Shown here: positions 47,932-63,113 of the stretch, one piece after another
Numbering within the stretch: the first letter of the stretch is position 1
How the letters are laid out: each line of letters begins with the position of its first letter
NCBI GenBank assembly: GCA_009694185.1
Contig: SHVR01000009.1
Span: 1 to 64,000 of the forward strand
Origin: Alphaproteobacteria bacterium
Lineage (GTDB): Bacteria > Pseudomonadota > Alphaproteobacteria > SHVR01
Reading direction: 5' to 3'
Length of the DNA stretch: 64,000 nucleotides
Notes under the pieces: generated by a model
The model's database searches: none
What the model saw: the letters and a program-made list of their open reading frames with translations, nothing else
Told to the model about the DNA's origin: nothing
Made by a program: the position numbers and the translations under genes

Positions 47932-48987
47932 TTACGAACCCTTGGAATATTTCGTGCCGGCGGCGAAGACGAAGTCGAATGTCTTGCGGCCCGGCAGGCC
48001 CTTCTGCTCCATCTCGGCGATCCACTTGTCCCACACCGGCTTGGCCGCCTTTTCCTGGAACTGAACCAGCATGTCGGGCGTAATGGTGATCCGCTCGAGC
48101 CCGACCTTCTCGAATATGGGAATCCATTTCCGGTCCTCGCTCTCATAGGCTTCGCGCAAGGCGATGTAATACTGCGCCTTGACGTCGATCATGAGCTGAC
48201 GGTACTCGGCCGGGAGCTTTTGGAACGCGGTATGGCTCAGGGTGAAGGCGTTATGGATGGTGCCGAGTTGCAGGCCGAAAGTGTACCACTTCGACACCTC
48301 ATGCAGTTTGTAGGACCCGAAAGTGTAGCTGAAGGGAAATGAAGCCGCCTGGAAGACGTTGCGCTCCAGAGCCGCGTAGACCTCGGGCGCCGGCACCGAG
48401 GTCGGGATGGCGCCGAGCGTTTTCATGGCCTCGCCGGAGCCGCCCACGGCGCGAACCCGCATGCCCTTCCAATCGTCGAGGGTGCGCGGCGGCTTGCCGG
48501 TGCCCATGAATTCATAAAGCGGCAGCGGCACGCCGACGATCGCATAGGCGTTCCAGCGGTCCAGTTCTTCCTTGGCCGGCGGGAATTGGTAGAAATCCTC
48601 CATGACGCGCGCGATGGCGTCGATGCCCTTCATCGGCAGATAAGGCAGATCGATCACACTGTTCAGCGGCGCCTTGCCCGGCGAATAACCGAAGGCCGTC
48701 AGCGAGCCTTGGAACGAGTCGACCTTGATGCCGTCGAGATGGTCCTTCGCGTCCGAGAGCTGCTCGTTATAGTGCAGGCGCAGGGTGAACTTGCCGGCGG
48801 TTTTTTCCTCGACATGCTTGGCCATGAACTCGATGCCCTTGGTCACGGCTCGAGGCGGCCCATAAATGGCGATGCGCCAGGCGATCTTCTCCTGCGCCTC
48901 GGCGATGGCCGCCGGGCCAAGGATGAGACTCAAAGCGAGCGCCAAAATCCCGCCGACTTCGGTCGCCGGCCGTGTCAAAAATTCCAT
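47932..48987 (-). CDS. TRAP-type solute-binding protein, first of a tandem pair
   Basis: 351 residues from ATG 48987. Signal peptide about 1-31 (GGILALALSLILGPAAIAEA). The mature part shares LHYNEQLSDAKDHLDGI, GKPPRTLDDWKG, RAVGGSGEAM and GAIPTSVPAPEVYAALER with its neighbour, so the two arose by duplication. It is the first gene of the minus-strand operon SBP-SBP-hyuA-hyuB-dgdA-like. The pair differ mainly in the distal pocket region, so they may bind related ligands. Confidence 0.9.
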   Translation of the reverse strand: MEFLTRPATEVGGILALALSLILGPAAIAEAQEKIAWRIAIYGPPRAVTKGIEFMAKHVEEKTAGKFTLRLHYNEQLSDAKDHLDGIKVDSFQGSLTAFGYSPGKAPLNSVIDLPYLPMKGIDAIARVMEDFYQFPPAKEELDRWNAYAIVGVPLPLYEFMGTGKPPRTLDDWKGMRVRAVGGSGEAMKTLGAIPTSVPAPEVYAALERNVFQAASFPFSYTFGSYKLHEVSKWYTFGLQLGTIHNAFTLSHTAFQKLPAEYRQLMIDVKAQYYIALREAYESEDRKWIPIFEKVGLERITITPDMLVQFQEKAAKPVWDKWIAEMEQKGLPGRKTFDFVFAAGTKYSKGS

Positions 48988-49776
48988 CGTCGCTTTGCCT
49001 CTTCAATCGCGCCCCTTGAGCGGGAGCCAGAAGTCGGCGGCAGATTAGCCGCGATAACCGGCGGCGTCGAGAATGGCGCCGCATGCGCTATAATGAAAAC
49101 AATAATCGGTAGGGATCGCCACAGGCCCCGGTATGGGCCGAGGCGAGGGCCTTTAAGCAATTGATATATAAACGTTTTGGCGCGCCTGACACGAGTGCGC
49201 GGCGGACCTGGAGTGGTTTCCCGAGTCGGAACCCCTGAGGGACGAACGGGCGGTGAGCGATGTATTTGGTAAATTTGAGTTTTGCCCCGCGACAGTTGCC
49301 CGTGGGCGTACCCAAGGGGCCATCGGAAAGTCGAATTTCCCGGCGCCGCTTGTTGTTGGGGCAGCCAGGACTACTTGTTCTTTACGGGCTCGTTAACGTT
49401 GACGGCCTATGTTTGGCATTGCTCTTGCACAGGTTTCGGTGACACCCGTTGTAGGAGCCAAGAACGGCCCGACCCGGAAAGGGCGGGCCTATGAGACACG
49501 GTTTGATGTGAGGTGCGCGTACGCGGTTGAGAGTTGGCAATCGATTGGCCCGTATGGGCCGAATTGTAGGTCGGTGGGCTGTTAGCCGCGACTTCGCCTC
49601 TGAGGCGGATACGCGAAAGCTAGAGGTAGATCGTCCATGTTGGCGATGTCCCATACCTTCCGGCAAACGCCGATCCCTCGGGACTCGACGCCAGAATGGC
49701 AGCGCCCCACGCCGCCCCATCCCCTTGTTGGCCAAAACCCGGAATTTTCGGCGACCGATCGACCGGAGGAACCCTC
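48988..49776. other. Long intergenic region before prkA
   Basis: Nearly 800 bases with no convincing protein gene; the short frames here resemble nothing. Features seen: TATAAT at 49089-49094; an AT-rich patch at about 49150-49172; hairpins GGCCC-CGGTAT-GGGCC (about 49124) and GGCCC-GTAT-GGGCC (about 49547); and a strong stem GGCCCG-A-CCC/GGG-CGGGCC near 49466-49489. It must hold the divergent promoters of the TRAP/hyu operon and prkA. A long 5' leader or small RNA ending at the terminator below is likely. Confidence 0.5.
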
Positions 49777-49809
49777 GCCGCGTGCGACGGTTTCCGTCGC
49801 GGCTTTTTT
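49777..49809 (+). terminator. Rho-independent terminator 27 bases before prkA
   Basis: Stem GCGACGG (49784-49790) with CCGTCGC (49794-49800), loop TTT, extended outward by GCC/GGC, followed by TTTTTT at 49804-49809. Only 27 bases separate it from the prkA ATG, so it must stop a leader transcript or a small RNA coming from the upstream region; prkA expression would need antitermination or a promoter within the terminator region. Confidence 0.8.
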
Positions 49810-49836
49810 CCCCCATTGCGAGAGCCAAGGTGTGTC

Positions 49837-51783
49837 ATGACGCAATCCGCGGATGTCTTTGATCTTTATGCGAACATCTTCGAGAGCCGCAAGCAGACGG
49901 AGCTCTCGCTTCGGGAATATCTGCGGCTCTGCCGCGACGAGCCCAAAACGTTCGCGACCGCGGCCGAGCGCATGGTCAGCGCCATTGGCGAGCCGGAGAT
50001 TGTCGACACGGCCCAGGATCCACAGCTCGGCCGCGTCTTCATGAATCGCTCGATCAAGCGCTATCCCACCTTTGCCGATTTCTACGGCATGGAGGAAACC
50101 ATCGAGCGCATCGTGGGTTTCTTCAAGCACGCGGCCCAGGGCCTCGAGGAGCGCAAGCAGATTCTCTATTTGCTCGGCCCGGTCGGCGGCGGCAAGTCGT
50201 CGCTCGCCGAACGGCTGAAGACGCTCATGGAGAAGCTGCCGATCTATGTGCTGAAGGCGGGCGATCATGTCAGCCCGGTCTTTGAGTCGCCCCTCGGTCT
50301 CTTCGATCCCGACCGCATGGGCCCGGTGCTGGAGGAAAAGTACCGCATTCCGGGGCGCTATCTGACCGGTCTCACATCGCCTTGGGCGATGAAGCGCATC
50401 CAGGAGTTCGACGGCGATCTGTCGCGGTTCTCGGTGGTCAAACTGTTTCCCTCGAAGCTCGACCAAATCGGTATCACCAAGACCGAGCCGGGCGACGACA
50501 ATAACCAGGACATCTCGTCCCTGGTCGGCAAGGTCGACATTCGCAAGCTCGAATTTTTCAGCCAGAACGATCCCGACGCCTATTCCTATAGCGGCGGCCT
50601 CAACCGCACGACCCAGGGCCTGCTCGAATTCGTCGAGATGTTCAAGGCACCGATCAAAATGCTGCACCCGCTGCTGACCGCGACCCAGGAAAGCAACTAT
50701 GTCGGCACCGAGAGCGTCGGCACCATCCCCTTCCAGGGCATCGTGCTGGCCCACTCGAACGAGGCCGAGTGGCAGAGCTTCAAGAACAACAAGAACAACG
50801 AGGCGTTTATCGATCGCATCTGCGTCGTCAAGGTGCCCTATTGCTTGCGCGCCAACGAGGAGCGCGAAATCTACACCAAATTGTTGCAGTCGAGCGACCT
50901 TTCGAGCGCGCCCTGCAGCCCGTCCACGCTCGATATGCTGGCCCAGTTCTGCGTCCTCTCCCGCCTCAAGGAGCACGAGAACTCCAATCTGTATTCCAAG
51001 ATGCGCGTCTATAATGGCGAGAACCTGAAGGACGTCGATCCGAAGGCGAAATCCATGCAGGAATATCGCGACGTCGCCGGCGTCGACGAGGGCATGACCG
51101 GCGCCTCGACCCGCTTCGCCTTCAAGGTGTTGTCGGAGACGTTCAATTTCGACAATGAGGAAGTGGCGGCCGATCCCGTCCACCTGATGTATGTCCTGGA
51201 GCAGTCAATTCGCCGCACCCAGTTTCCGGAGGCGACCGAGAAGCAGTATATCGACTTCATCAAGAGCGAACTGGCGCCGCGTTATGCCGAATTTATCGGC
51301 AACGAGATCCAGAAAGCCTATTTGGAGAGCTATGGCGATTACGGACAGAACCTGTTCGACCGCTATGTGGCGTATGCCGATGCCTGGGTCGAGGACCAGG
51401 ATTTCAAGGACCCGGATACCGGCCAGATGTTCGACCGCAAGATGCTCGACCAGGAGATGTCGAAGATCGAGAAGCCGGCCGGTATCGCCAATCCCAAGGA
51501 CTTCCGCAACGAGGTGGTGAAATTTTCGCTCCGGGCGCGGGCCGCCAACAACGGCAAGAACCCGTCCTGGACCTCCTACGAGAAGATCCGCGAAGTGATC
51601 GAAAAGCGGATGTTCTCCCAGGTCGAGGACCTGCTCCCCGTGATCAGCTTCACCAGCAAGCGCGACAAGGAGAGTGAGAAGAAACACTCCGAATTCGTCG
51701 CCCGCATGATGACCCGCAGCTACACGGCGCGCCAGACGCGCCGGCTGGTCGAATGGTACATGCGCGTCAACAAGGCCGGGTGA
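49837..51783 (+). CDS. prkA: PrkA (YeaG) AAA+ serine protein kinase
   Basis: 648 residues from ATG 49837; the frame extends 47 codons upstream through the terminator, which is unlikely to be translated. Walker A GPVGGGKSS at 114-122, PrkA N-terminal AAA domain to about 400, kinase-like C-domain after it (RTQFPEATEKQYIDFI; DQEMSKIEKPAGI). In E. coli yeaG-yeaH with ycgB respond to stress and starvation; in Bacillus PrkA affects sporulation. It heads the prkA-yeaH-spoVR unit. Confidence 0.95.
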   Translation: MTQSADVFDLYANIFESRKQTELSLREYLRLCRDEPKTFATAAERMVSAIGEPEIVDTAQDPQLGRVFMNRSIKRYPTFADFYGMEETIERIVGFFKHAAQGLEERKQILYLLGPVGGGKSSLAERLKTLMEKLPIYVLKAGDHVSPVFESPLGLFDPDRMGPVLEEKYRIPGRYLTGLTSPWAMKRIQEFDGDLSRFSVVKLFPSKLDQIGITKTEPGDDNNQDISSLVGKVDIRKLEFFSQNDPDAYSYSGGLNRTTQGLLEFVEMFKAPIKMLHPLLTATQESNYVGTESVGTIPFQGIVLAHSNEAEWQSFKNNKNNEAFIDRICVVKVPYCLRANEEREIYTKLLQSSDLSSAPCSPSTLDMLAQFCVLSRLKEHENSNLYSKMRVYNGENLKDVDPKAKSMQEYRDVAGVDEGMTGASTRFAFKVLSETFNFDNEEVAADPVHLMYVLEQSIRRTQFPEATEKQYIDFIKSELAPRYAEFIGNEIQKAYLESYGDYGQNLFDRYVAYADAWVEDQDFKDPDTGQMFDRKMLDQEMSKIEKPAGIANPKDFRNEVVKFSLRARAANNGKNPSWTSYEKIREVIEKRMFSQVEDLLPVISFTSKRDKESEKKHSEFVARMMTRSYTARQTRRLVEWYMRVNKAG

Positions 51784-51793
51784 GAAACGAACC

Positions 51794-53092
51794 ATGAACA
51801 TCGTCGACCGCCGGCCGAACCCCAAGGGCAAGAGCCACGCGAACCGGCAGCGCTTCATCCGCCTGGCGCGCGAGACGCTGAAGGAAGCGGTCGTGCGCTC
51901 GATCAAGGATCGGGCGCTCGGAGACGTCGACACCCGCGAGGTCGTCGATATCCCGGTCAAGCGGATCCAGGAGCCGCGCCTGCGCCATGCCGGCAAGGGT
52001 GGCAACCGCGAGCATGTGCTGCCCGGCAATCGCGAGTATGTCGAGGGCGACACGCTGCCGAAGCCCAAGTCGGCGGCCGGCAAGGGCGGCGGGCGCGAGG
52101 GCAGCCCGGACGGCGAAGGCGAAGACAGCTTCCAGTTCACCCTGAGCCGCGAGGAATATCTCGACATCCTGTTCGAGGAACTCGAGCTGCCGAACCTCGC
52201 CAAGACCTATCTGAAAGAGACACCCCGTATGCGCACCACGCGGGCGGGCTTCACCATGTCCGGGGCGCCTTCGAATTTGAACCTGGTGCGGACCATGCGC
52301 AACAGCCTGGCGCGCCGGATCGCCCTCAGCCGGCCGAAACCCGCCGCCCTCGCCGATCTCGAGGCCGCGATCGTGGACGCCACCGGTGACGCCGAAGGTG
52401 CCGCCCGCCTCGCCGACCTCATCGCCCGGCGCGACCGGCTGGTCCGCCGCGCCAAGGCGATCGCCTTCATCGATCCGCTCGACTTGCGCTACAACCGCTT
52501 CGAGCCCACGCCGCAGCCGAACGCCCAGGCCGTGATGTTCTGCCTGATGGATGTGTCGGGCTCGATGAGCGAATATATGAAGGACCTGGCGAAGCGGTTC
52601 TTCTTGCTGCTGCACCTCTTCCTCGACCGAAAATACGAGCATGTTGAAGTGGTTTTCATCCGGCATACGTCGCGGGCACAGGAGGTCGACGAGGAGACGT
52701 TCTTCCGCAGCCAAGAGACCGGCGGTACCGTCGTCTCGACGGCGCTCGAAGAGATGCATCGCATCGTCGCCGAACGCTATCCGGTCGCGGAGTGGAACAT
52801 TTACGGCGCCCAGGCTTCCGACGGCGACAATTATTCGAGCGACAGCGAGACTTGCATCGAATTGCTGCGCAACCAGCTCCTTCCGCTCTGCCAATTCTTC
52901 GCCTATATCGAAGTGCTCGACGAGCGCGAGATCGGCGTCTTCCGCTCGGAAGCCAATGCCAGCGTGCTGTGGCGCGACTACAAGACCATCGTCGACCGTT
53001 TCGGGAATTTCGCGATGACCCGGGTGTTCTCCAAGGCCGACATTTTCCCGGTCTTCCACCAGCTCTTCGCCAAATCGCGCCATGCCGCGTGA
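51794..53092 (+). CDS. yeaH: YeaH/DUF444 protein with VWA domain
   Basis: 432 residues, 10 bases after prkA. N-terminal NIVDRRPNPKGKSHANRQRF, a Gly/Lys-rich stretch at 90-112, then a von Willebrand A-like domain with the metal site DVSGSMSEYMKDLAKRFF (Asp253, Ser255, Ser257). It is the usual partner of PrkA and SpoVR; its molecular role is not established. The 3' end overlaps spoVR by 11 bases. Confidence 0.94.
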   Translation: MNIVDRRPNPKGKSHANRQRFIRLARETLKEAVVRSIKDRALGDVDTREVVDIPVKRIQEPRLRHAGKGGNREHVLPGNREYVEGDTLPKPKSAAGKGGGREGSPDGEGEDSFQFTLSREEYLDILFEELELPNLAKTYLKETPRMRTTRAGFTMSGAPSNLNLVRTMRNSLARRIALSRPKPAALADLEAAIVDATGDAEGAARLADLIARRDRLVRRAKAIAFIDPLDLRYNRFEPTPQPNAQAVMFCLMDVSGSMSEYMKDLAKRFFLLLHLFLDRKYEHVEVVFIRHTSRAQEVDEETFFRSQETGGTVVSTALEEMHRIVAERYPVAEWNIYGAQASDGDNYSSDSETCIELLRNQLLPLCQFFAYIEVLDEREIGVFRSEANASVLWRDYKTIVDRFGNFAMTRVFSKADIFPVFHQLFAKSRHAA

Positions 53093-54647
53093 ACCGTCGC
53101 GCACCCGCGCCAAGAGCGCCGAGGCCAAGCTGCTTTATACCAGCGGCGAGTGGACGTTCGAGACTCTGAAGGCGACCTACGACGCCATCGAGGCGATCGC
53201 GGTGGGCGAGCTCGGCCTCGACCCCTATGCCAACCAAATCGAGCTCATCAACTCCGAGCAGATGCTGGACGCCTATTCCTCGATTGGCATGCCGGTCTTC
53301 TATCACCACTGGTCGTTCGGCAAGAAATTTGCCCGTGACGAGAAATCGTACCGCAAGGGCTATAGCGGCTTGGCTTACGAGATCGTCATCAACTCGAATC
53401 CCTGCATCTCCTACATCATGGAAGAAAACACCATGACCATGCAGGCCCTGGTCATGGCGCACGCGGCGTTCGGTCACAATCATTTCTTCAAGAACAACTA
53501 CCTGTTCCGGGAATGGACCGACGCCGAAGGCATCCTGGATTATCTGAGCTTCGCCCGGAGTTTCGTGATGCGCGCCGAGGAGCAGCATGGCATCGCCCAG
53601 GTCGAGCGCGTGCTCGACGCCGGACATGCCTTGATGGATCAAGGCGTCAACCGCTATGGCCGCCGGCCGCGCCTCAGCCTGGCGAACGAACGCCGGCGCG
53701 CCGAATCCCGGCGCGAGTACCGGCGCGAGACCTATAACGACCTCTGGCGCACGCTGCCCGCATCGACATCGCCGGCGGCAACGCCCGACGAAGGTGCCGA
53801 GATCGACCAAGGTACCCATCGCCTCGGCCTGCCCGAGGAAAACCTGCTCTATTTCATCGAGAAGTTTTCGCCGCGCCTGAAAGGCTGGGAGCGCGAGCTC
53901 CTGCGCATCGTTCGCAACATCGGTCAGTATTTCTATCCGCAGAAACAAACCAAGATGATGAACGAGGGCTGCGCCACCTACGTTCACTACCGGATCATGA
54001 ACCGGCTCTACGACACCGGCCGGATCGGCGAGGGGGCGATGCTGGAGTTCCTTGCCAGTCACGCGAACGTCGTTTTCCAACCGGCCTTCGACGATCCGCG
54101 CTATTCCGGGATCAACCCCTATGCGCTCGGCTTCGCCATGATGTGCGATATCGAGCGTGTCGTGACCGAGCCGGGCGACGAGGATCGAGCCTTCCTGCCG
54201 GAGATCGCCGGTACGGGCGACGTGATGGGCACGCTCCGGACCGCCTGGGCCAACTACCGCGACGATTCCTTCGTCGCCCAGTATCTGAGCCCGCATTTGA
54301 TGCGCAAGCTTCGGCTTTTTCAACTCGTCGACCGGCCCGACACGCCGGACTATCGCGTCGAGGCTATCCATGACGAACGCGGCTATCGGCGGCTGCGGCG
54401 TGCGTTGGCGCGGCAATACGATCCGGGATTGCGCGATCCCAACATCCAGGTGAGCGACGTCGATATGGCCGGAAGCCGCCGCCTCGTGCTGACCCATCGC
54501 ATGAACAATGCCGTGCCGCTCGCCGAGGCCGACGCGCGGGCGGTGCTCGCTTATGTCGCGGATCTGTGGGGGTATGACGTGGCGTTGCGCGGCGTCGGCG
54601 ATGACGACGGAATCGCGTATACCTACGAAGCTGCGGTGCCAGCTTGA
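53082..54647 (+). CDS. SpoVR family protein (YcgB)
   Basis: 521 residues, starting 11 bases inside yeaH. QIELINSEQMLDAYSSIGMP, YHHWSFGKKFARDE, YEIVINSNPCISYIMEENT, MAHAAFGHNHFFKNN and EGCATYVHY are SpoVR signatures, including conserved His and Glu residues that could bind a metal. In Bacillus it acts in spore cortex formation; in non-spore-formers it belongs to the PrkA stress unit. A perfect hairpin CAGGCGAA-T-TTCGCCTG follows the stop at 54661-54677. Confidence 0.94.
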   Translation: MPREPSRTRAKSAEAKLLYTSGEWTFETLKATYDAIEAIAVGELGLDPYANQIELINSEQMLDAYSSIGMPVFYHHWSFGKKFARDEKSYRKGYSGLAYEIVINSNPCISYIMEENTMTMQALVMAHAAFGHNHFFKNNYLFREWTDAEGILDYLSFARSFVMRAEEQHGIAQVERVLDAGHALMDQGVNRYGRRPRLSLANERRRAESRREYRRETYNDLWRTLPASTSPAATPDEGAEIDQGTHRLGLPEENLLYFIEKFSPRLKGWERELLRIVRNIGQYFYPQKQTKMMNEGCATYVHYRIMNRLYDTGRIGEGAMLEFLASHANVVFQPAFDDPRYSGINPYALGFAMMCDIERVVTEPGDEDRAFLPEIAGTGDVMGTLRTAWANYRDDSFVAQYLSPHLMRKLRLFQLVDRPDTPDYRVEAIHDERGYRRLRRALARQYDPGLRDPNIQVSDVDMAGSRRLVLTHRMNNAVPLAEADARAVLAYVADLWGYDVALRGVGDDDGIAYTYEAAVPA

Positions 54648-54805
54648 ACGGCGACCCAGGCGAATTTCGCCTGCGCTGGTCCGGGCCACCATGTTCCTCG
54701 CCATGCTCCGCCGCTTGACCCGGCCAATCGCGTGGACTTCAATCGCAACGTCCGGGATTGGGGTGTCGATTGGTTCGATATCCGTCAAGTGGGTGGCGCG
54801 TTGAT

Positions 54806-55543
54806 ATGGCGGGCGATCGCAAACTTCCAACGACACCGGGCGGGAACCGGTCCGCGGCCGGCGAGGTGGACGCGTTCCTGCGCCGGGTAGCCGCCATGCC
54901 GGTCGTCCGGCCGGCGGCTGGCCGTGGCCGGCTGATGTTCGCCCTGGACGCCACCGCCAGTCGCGAGCCCACCTGGGACCGAGCCTGCCAGCTCCAAGGC
55001 GAAATGTTCCAGGAGGCGGGCGCGCTGGGCGGCCTCGACATTCAGCTCGTCTACTATCGGGGTTTCGGCGAATTCAAGGCGAGTCGCTGGTATTCCGACG
55101 CGGTCGCCTTGTTGGGGCGCATGACGGGGGTGGGTTGCCTCGGTGGCCAGACCCAGATCGAAGCCATGTTGACCCATGCCATCGCCGAGACCCGCCGCCA
55201 GCGGGTCAACGCCCTGGTGTTCGTGGGCGATGCCTTCGAGGAAGACGTGGATGGCGTATCCCGGTTGGCGGGCGAACTCGGCGTGCTGGGCGTGCCGGCC
55301 TTCCTGTTTCACGAGGGCGACGATGCGGTGGCGAGCCGTGCTTTCAGGCAAATCGCCCGGTTGACAGGTGGTGCCTATTGCCGCTTCGACGCCAATAGCG
55401 CCCAGCAGCTCCGCGATCTTCTGCGTGCCGTGGCGGCGTTCGCGGCCGGCGGCCGGCGCGCTCTCGAAGACTTGAGCCGGCGCAAGGGTGGCGTGGCGGC
55501 GACGCTCGCCTCCCAGCTCAAGGCCTTGCCATACAAGGGCTAG
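54806..55543 (+). CDS. VWA-domain protein
   Basis: 245 residues from ATG 54806. A minimal von Willebrand A domain with MIDAS-like DATAS (Asp48, Thr50, Ser52) in LMFALDATASREPTWDRA, then QTQIEAMLTHAI and VNALVFVGDAFEEDVDG, the usual VWA beta strands. No signal peptide or helix anchor. It lies 158 bases after spoVR and 4 bases before the J-domain gene, so those two are a pair; alphaproteobacteria often carry them together. Function unknown. Confidence 0.8.
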   Translation: MAGDRKLPTTPGGNRSAAGEVDAFLRRVAAMPVVRPAAGRGRLMFALDATASREPTWDRACQLQGEMFQEAGALGGLDIQLVYYRGFGEFKASRWYSDAVALLGRMTGVGCLGGQTQIEAMLTHAIAETRRQRVNALVFVGDAFEEDVDGVSRLAGELGVLGVPAFLFHEGDDAVASRAFRQIARLTGGAYCRFDANSAQQLRDLLRAVAAFAAGGRRALEDLSRRKGGVAATLASQLKALPYKG

Positions 55544-55547
55544 TCGG

Positions 55548-56273
55548 GTGATCGCCTATGTCTTTCTCGGTCTCAGTCTGCTGATCGGCGGCATCCTGGC
55601 CGTGCGCTGGTTCGCCGGCGCCGATCCAAAGACGCTGGCCAGGGTCGCGCGCGTTGTTCTCGGCCTCGTCGCGGTCGTCGGCTTGATCTTGTTTCTGGCC
55701 TCCGGCCAGCTCGGCCTGGCGGTCATGGCGATCGGCGCGCTGCTGCCGATGTTGCTACGCTGGCGGACTCTGGCGCGCCTGGCGCGGACCACGGGCGGGC
55801 CGCGCCCCGGTCAGGAATCGACCATCGAAACGCGCTTCCTGCGCATGAGCCTCGACCATGACACGGGTGTGATGACCGGCATTGTGCTGGAAGGCGTCCA
55901 TCGCGGGCGCGGACTGCACGAACTCCACCAAGCCAACCTGCTCGACTTGCTGCGCGAGTGCCGCGTGGCGGACGCGGAGTCGGCGAGCGTGCTCGAAGCC
56001 TATCTCGATCGCACGCAGCAAGAGGACTGGCGCCAGGCCGCCGGCGAGACGGGCGAGGGCCGGGCGGCTGGTGAAGGCGGCGCCGCCAGCCCGAGCGCGG
56101 CCATGACAAGAAACGAAGCCTACCGGGTCCTCGGTCTCGAGGAGGGCGCCGGTGTCGACGCCATCAAGGCCGCCCATCGCCGCCTCATGCGCCAGCTCCA
56201 CCCCGATCACGGCGGCTCAACGTGGATTGCCGCAAAAATAAATCAGGCCAAGGACTTACTTCTGAAATCCTAA
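55548..56273 (+). CDS. Membrane-anchored J-domain protein, Pam18/Tim14-like
   Basis: 241 residues from GTG 55548. Two or three N-terminal transmembrane helices within residues 2-72, a linker, then a TerB-like helical stretch and a C-terminal J domain with HPD at 218-220 (MRQLHPDHGGS, then AAKINQAKDLLL). A J domain at the extreme C-terminus after a membrane anchor is the layout of mitochondrial Pam18. It would recruit DnaK to the inner membrane. Confidence 0.82.
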   Translation: MIAYVFLGLSLLIGGILAVRWFAGADPKTLARVARVVLGLVAVVGLILFLASGQLGLAVMAIGALLPMLLRWRTLARLARTTGGPRPGQESTIETRFLRMSLDHDTGVMTGIVLEGVHRGRGLHELHQANLLDLLRECRVADAESASVLEAYLDRTQQEDWRQAAGETGEGRAAGEGGAASPSAAMTRNEAYRVLGLEEGAGVDAIKAAHRRLMRQLHPDHGGSTWIAAKINQAKDLLLKS

Positions 56274-62394: not shown

Positions 62395-62985
62395 TCAGCC
62401 GTTACGGCGGCGGCGGACGAAACCGAGTGCCGCGAGGCCGATGCCGAGCATGGCGAGCGACGCCAGCTCGAGTATGACATTCACAGTGAACGGGAAGAAA
62501 GCCACAGGGCAAGAGGGTATACCACTTGGGTCACTGAGATCACATGGGTCCGACCCGTCCAGTGGGACATAGTAGTGGTGGCCCAGTGGCGGATAATCTG
62601 GTCCGACAATATTACCAAAGGTAGCGTAGATACTGCCAATCCAGTTACCCATCGTAGGGATGAAATGGGAGAACGATAATGTGGTGCCGTCTACCCCGTC
62701 GAAAGTAATCGCTTCCGAAGTTAGTGCCGGCAACGAACCCATGTCCTGATAAAAGGAAAAGAAAAGTGTGCCGGGATCGCCGAACGCGACGACCGAGTAG
62801 GTGAGACTTTCACCAGCTTCGATTGTGAAAACCGGATCGGTCAGCCCGCCGGAGCTGTCGAGCGCGATGCCGTTGATGCGGATGTCCTCGAAGAAAATGT
62901 GCAACGCCAGGGCTTGTCCCGCACCCAGAGCGAGTGTGGCGGTTGCCGCTATGGCCAAGAGTAATTTCCGCATGCCAGACCCCAT
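62395..62985 (-). CDS. PEP-CTERM-like exported protein
   Basis: 196 residues from ATG 62985, five bases after GGAGAG. Signal peptide LLLAIAATATLALGAGQALA; the mature part is Gly/Ser/aromatic-rich with no known domain. The C-terminus ELASLAMLGIGLAALGFVRRRRNG is the helix plus Arg cluster of PEP-CTERM sorting signals, but the usual PEP motif reads VILELAS. It would be exported and handled by exosortase/EpsH if that is encoded elsewhere. The gene is visibly less GC-rich than its neighbours. Confidence 0.75.
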   Translation of the reverse strand: MGSGMRKLLLAIAATATLALGAGQALALHIFFEDIRINGIALDSSGGLTDPVFTIEAGESLTYSVVAFGDPGTLFFSFYQDMGSLPALTSEAITFDGVDGTTLSFSHFIPTMGNWIGSIYATFGNIVGPDYPPLGHHYYVPLDGSDPCDLSDPSGIPSCPVAFFPFTVNVILELASLAMLGIGLAALGFVRRRRNG

Positions 62986-63113
62986 GATACTCTCCGGCCG
63001 GCGCCCCAATCGAGGGTCACCGGTCGCCAATTACCGAGCAAGTCGCGTGCCAACAAATTATTTATTGCATAATCAACCAGTTAGCTCGATCGAGTGGAGC
63101 GAGCATGGAAAAT

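Follow-up and report, generated by a model that had tools for sequence, protein, structure and literature searches.

A candidate leaky terminator at the end of a probable sigma-54 leader of the prkA-yeaH-spoVR operon

The region upstream of prkA in the window, by which we mean the whole 64-kb stretch of DNA analysed here, is best read as carrying a probable sigma-54 promoter followed by a leader terminator specific to this lineage, and the terminator may limit the widely conserved starvation-response operon prkA-yeaH-spoVR. PrkA (YeaG) is a conserved starvation kinase whose function is poorly known. In front of its gene lie a promoter-like site, a non-coding leader, and a hairpin followed directly by a T run (Table 1). 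From this arrangement we predict promoter use, a start site, termination and read-through. The operon would be transcribed from the sigma-54 promoter with a leader of ≈395 nt, and an intrinsic terminator near the leader end would stop a fraction of the polymerases at ≈49809. A start near 49441 would place the hairpin at the end of the leader and make read-through a requirement for prkA expression. The output of the locus would be a leader RNA of roughly 370 nt plus the read-through operon mRNA, and the terminator would be a leaky brake on genes needed chiefly under starvation; the short leader RNA may or may not act elsewhere. We assign a probability of about 0.5 to the proposal that the hairpin, as a leaky terminator within a sigma-54 leader, ends part of the transcripts early.

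Table 1. Positions of the features of the prkA locus in the window.
Feature	Position	Strand	Details
dctP family TRAP-type solute-binding protein gene	47932..48987	-	divergent, far border of the gap; PF03480
Sigma-54 type promoter (putative)	49414..49429	+	TGGCATTGCTCTTGCA; TGGCAT-N5-TTGCA (-24/-12); start expected near 49441
Predicted 5' leader of prkA	49441..49836	+	≈395 nt, non-coding; inferred from the promoter
Only candidate competitor of the hairpin	49584..49592	+	AGCCGCGAC; perfect 9-nt complement of the hairpin 3' arm (49796-49804)
Intrinsic-terminator-like hairpin	49777..49809	+	GCCGCGTGCGACGGTTTCCGTCGCGGCTTTTTT; 7-bp stem, three-pair extension with 4-nt bulge, T6
prkA (PrkA family AAA+/serine kinase)	49837..51783	+	PF08298, PF06798, NF011999
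yeaH/DUF444	51794..53092	+	operon gene 2; PF04285
spoVR	53082..54647	+	operon gene 3; PF04293

The hairpin stem is formed by GCGACGG (49784-49790) and CCGTCGC (49794-49800) around a TTT loop, and GGC (49801-49803) can pair with GCC (49777-49779) over the bulge. This extension puts the T run (49804-49809) directly behind the stem; five C follow, and 27 nt separate T6 from the prkA ATG. The 7-base stem, three-base extension, six T and 27-base distance described in the original prediction were all confirmed, and the element has the G+C-rich hairpin and subsequent T run that characterize intrinsic terminators. Assignment of the hairpin to a neighbouring gene was rejected, since dctP points the other way, as was a terminator for the opposite strand, which carries no T run.

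Hairpins with T6 that were at least as stable as this one arose in 1.2% of leader shuffles, and equally compact ones in 0.18%; a stricter count gave 8 in 1000 shuffles at an energy cut-off slightly beyond that of this hairpin, for which 1.2% is the matched figure. In 1.39 Mb of stretches sampled from this genome, fully Watson-Crick 7-bp hairpins with T6 occurred twice, compared to 0.28 times in shuffles. The whole hairpin-plus-T5 class numbered 17 in the same 1.39 Mb compared to 10.3 expected, and 7 compared to 1.7 without G-U pairs. With this class barely above chance, terminators of this kind seem to be few in the organism, which appears to rely little on intrinsic termination. The hairpin is probably not due to chance, and the excess is not overwhelming.

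The main rival to a leader terminator is a chance, weak or recently arisen hairpin of little effect, through which prkA transcription passes. We regard this alternative as possible, if on the unlikely side. It is favored by the scarcity of intrinsic terminators in this genome and by a terminator scan with loose rules, which was at chance level (2 sites in 3 kb compared to 2.7 expected). Moreover, the reading that turned up the hairpin took in 64 kb and many gene starts, and a p of 0.2-1% per leader is therefore not strong. Chance does not readily account, however, for an exact, G+C-rich 7-bp stem with T6 adjoining the extended stem, given that the genome shuffles predict ≈0.013 fully Watson-Crick hairpins of this kind per 64-kb window.

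The promoter assignment rests on several lines of evidence. TGGCATTGCTCTTGCA is the best plus-strand sigma-54 match in the window, with a score of 21.5 of 23.5 under a scheme whose weights we set ourselves, and its score was equalled in 0.5% of leader shuffles. It has GG at -24 and GC at -12 in the fixed spacing of TGGCAC-N5-TTGC, and it lies 423 nt upstream of the prkA ATG. This site had been missed by the original prediction. Earlier reports describe RpoN (sigma-54) control of the R. etli prkA operon (PMC3188799) and NtrC/sigma-54 promoters of yeaG in E. coli (PMC4664914) and Salmonella (PMC3844500); the Salmonella site given there, TGGCATGAGAGTTGCTTT, agrees with TGGCATTGCTCTTGCA at TGGCAT-N5-TTGC. 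Likewise, B. cenocepacia prkA is listed in a table of NtrC-regulated genes (PMC5491218).

Of 88 relatives, 22 have a site that scores at least 20.5 upstream of prkA, compared to 3.2 in shuffles, 4 with such a site on the reverse strand, and none with one inside prkA itself, an enrichment of ≈7 fold in which related species are counted singly and are not fully independent. The closest relative found (L092, 87% PrkA identity) has the site TGGCATCCTTCGTGCA at -437, compared to -423 here; in L002, the next closest, the only site is weaker and lies at -51. Among relatives, the distance from site to prkA varies widely, between about 50 and 500 nt. An NtrC-like activator that carries the GAFTGA sigma-54 contact motif is encoded in the genome. 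The assembly, which is 77% complete, yielded no rpoN, and the gene was present in all three relatives tested. An EcfG promoter for prkA was rejected, as the two pattern matches in the window are not near prkA.

Two further candidate elements of this type were seen. A perfect sigma-54 consensus (TGGCACGCGACTTGCT, 63037-63052, minus strand) lies just upstream of an ORF (62395-63030, minus strand) whose product looks secreted and has a PEP-CTERM-like C terminus; the best NCBIfam match of this protein (E 0.00015) is below cut-off. This second site in the window suggests that sigma-54 is in use. In addition, the Rhodopila-type loci L047, L054, L055, L059, and L060 have a conserved TTGCACCCATCTTGCA or similar sequence ≈75 nt upstream of prkA, possibly a sigma-54 variant in which TG replaces GG at -24.

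The prkA start at 49837 is consistent with the PrkA proteins of relatives, which can be aligned from the first residue onwards, and the gap between it and the dctP start (48987) is 849 nt. With gene borders from a crude in-house gene caller, the corresponding gap has a median of 493 nt over 85 loci, and the two closest relatives have gaps of 864 and 1045 nt. Long gaps are thus ordinary and common to prkA loci, and the one seen here most likely houses regulatory DNA. What was originally called a long unexplained leader is indeed gene-free and holds no coding-like ORF, but its length is usual for prkA, and it is less unexplained because the distal sigma-54 promoter accounts for it at least partly. 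The gap also contains two imperfect repeat pairs (49128-49141 / 49549-49562 and 49033-49054 / 49570-49591), possibly by chance. At the other end of the operon, two genes lie directly 3' of spoVR (54758-56273), one without a Pfam match and the other with a C-terminal DnaJ domain.

The leader does not appear to encode a peptide. Its ORFs of at least 20 aa have a flat G+C content by codon position (e.g. 0.63/0.59/0.66, compared to 0.57/0.37/0.84 in prkA), on which grounds a leader peptide or small gene of this size was rejected, and they gave no Pfam or other family match; the frame that spans the terminator (49637-49840) does not look coding. The leader is also no more folded than its shuffles (z-score -0.95 for 49441-49770). 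In the predicted fold of 49441-49809, for which energies are rough at this RNA length, the hairpin forms and belongs to the most stable structure.

These results bear on regulated attenuation, in which a signal would shift the leader between terminator and antiterminator, for instance by pairing of 49584-49592 with the 3' arm of the hairpin. The placement of the terminator just before the first gene and the presence in the leader of a 9-nt perfect complement of the 3' arm would suit such a switch. However, a match of this length occurs in 3% of shuffles, and the forced alternative is predicted to be about 8 kcal/mol less stable than the hairpin fold, which leaves the leader without an antiterminator of comparable stability. 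Furthermore, 49584-49592 would pair with the last-made arm, unlike classic antiterminators. An Rfam search of the window and leader returned no family, and no coding leader peptide, folding beyond that of shuffles, or conservation of the leader was found that would speak for attenuation, which we consider unlikely. A literature search for prkA together with transcription attenuation gave no more than a passing mention. Because the sole competing pairing is so much worse and is matched in shuffles, we favor a leaky terminator and claim no signal that sets the ratio of termination to read-through. A more elaborate proposal, in which a sigma-54 leader RNA ends at a regulated terminator, the operon is controlled at both initiation and read-through, and the leader RNA is a nitrogen-starvation sRNA, seems quite improbable to us. 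The choice first offered for this locus, a small RNA or attenuation, stands in part: the hairpin and sigma-54 site are compatible with a leader transcript of which some copies terminate at 49809, but positive support for regulated attenuation is lacking, as there is no Rfam family, leader peptide or comparable competitor, and the closest relatives have neither a similar leader nor a similar terminator.

Leader similarity was not detectable to any of 80 prkA loci, nor was a similar leader found in 385 genomes of the class, which leaves no leaders to compare for covariation; together with the Rfam search, these comparisons revealed neither a known aptamer nor a conserved covarying leader. Three hairpin-like matches among the 385 genomes lie in one conserved stretch with no T run. 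Terminators within the last 150 nt before prkA occur in 1 of 89 loci compared to 0.9 expected, and none proximal to prkA was found in the three closest relatives; all relatives compared come from outside the order. As far as seen, the leader terminator looks restricted to this lineage, as a local variation and not a widespread switch, and this restriction weakens both the functional claim and its general interest. The lack of a counterpart in close relatives is likewise in line with a chance hairpin. Among the leaders of five groups of relatives, conservation was seen in some groups and was confined to the 100-150 nt nearest prkA. The last 130 nt before prkA are strongly conserved in L038, L041, L048, and L056, with up to 45 of 50 columns invariant, and this proximal region is likely a promoter or leader element in Acetobacteraceae.

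The position of the hairpin allows two other explanations. If a free-standing small RNA gene ended at the hairpin, prkA transcription would start between the hairpin and the ATG or overlap the hairpin. The terminator is compatible with such a gene, and a sigma-70-like site (TCGAGA-N16-TATAAT, 49067-49094) could serve it, but the mere 27 nt from T6 to the ATG contain no sigma-70, EcfG or sigma-54 site, and no conserved RNA was found, which makes this arrangement very unlikely. A start downstream of 49809 had been named as the case that would refute the original prediction; this short interval with no recognisable promoter speaks against it. Alternatively, the hairpin, which is no more than about 30 nt from the start codon, could stabilise the 5' UTR, bind a protein or serve as a processing site close to the ribosome-binding site of prkA, instead of terminating transcription. 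This would leave the exactly placed T6 unexplained, and we judge it highly improbable.

If the leader terminator is real, it would add a second control layer after a sigma-54 promoter and extend the list of alphaproteobacterial 5'-leader RNAs, in a case that rests on the sequence of one uncultured lineage. The wider gain is that sigma-54 control of prkA now has computed support among alphaproteobacterial relatives.

The prkA leader shares a terminator just before the first gene with trp-type attenuators and riboswitches, but unlike in these, no leader peptide, known aptamer or competitive antiterminator was found in it. The yeaGH genes of E. coli and Salmonella and the prkA operon of R. etli, the latter with the same three-gene order, comprise the same genes under sigma-54 (RpoN) control, whereas the available portions of their descriptions mention no leader terminator; in E. 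coli, the yeaG 5'UTR is instead a target of the sRNA SdsR, which regulates it near the ribosome site (PMC10954441). In the dcw leader of R. sphaeroides (Rhodobacter sphaeroides), which gives rise to UpsM, a terminator lies within a long 5' leader and read-through is about 1% (PMC5089854). UpsM differs in its operon and promoter type, and it is conserved in its family with a measured 268-nt leader and read-through (PMC5089854), whereas the prkA leader is known from sequence and lacks conservation. At that level, the prkA locus has the same set of elements, a promoter, a non-coding leader and a terminator before the first gene of the operon. Both are alphaproteobacterial operons with a long leader and an intrinsic terminator ahead of the first gene, and in both the terminator is crossed by an open frame; the read-through that the dcw operon needs for its expression (PMC5089854) would likewise be needed in the proposed prkA leader.
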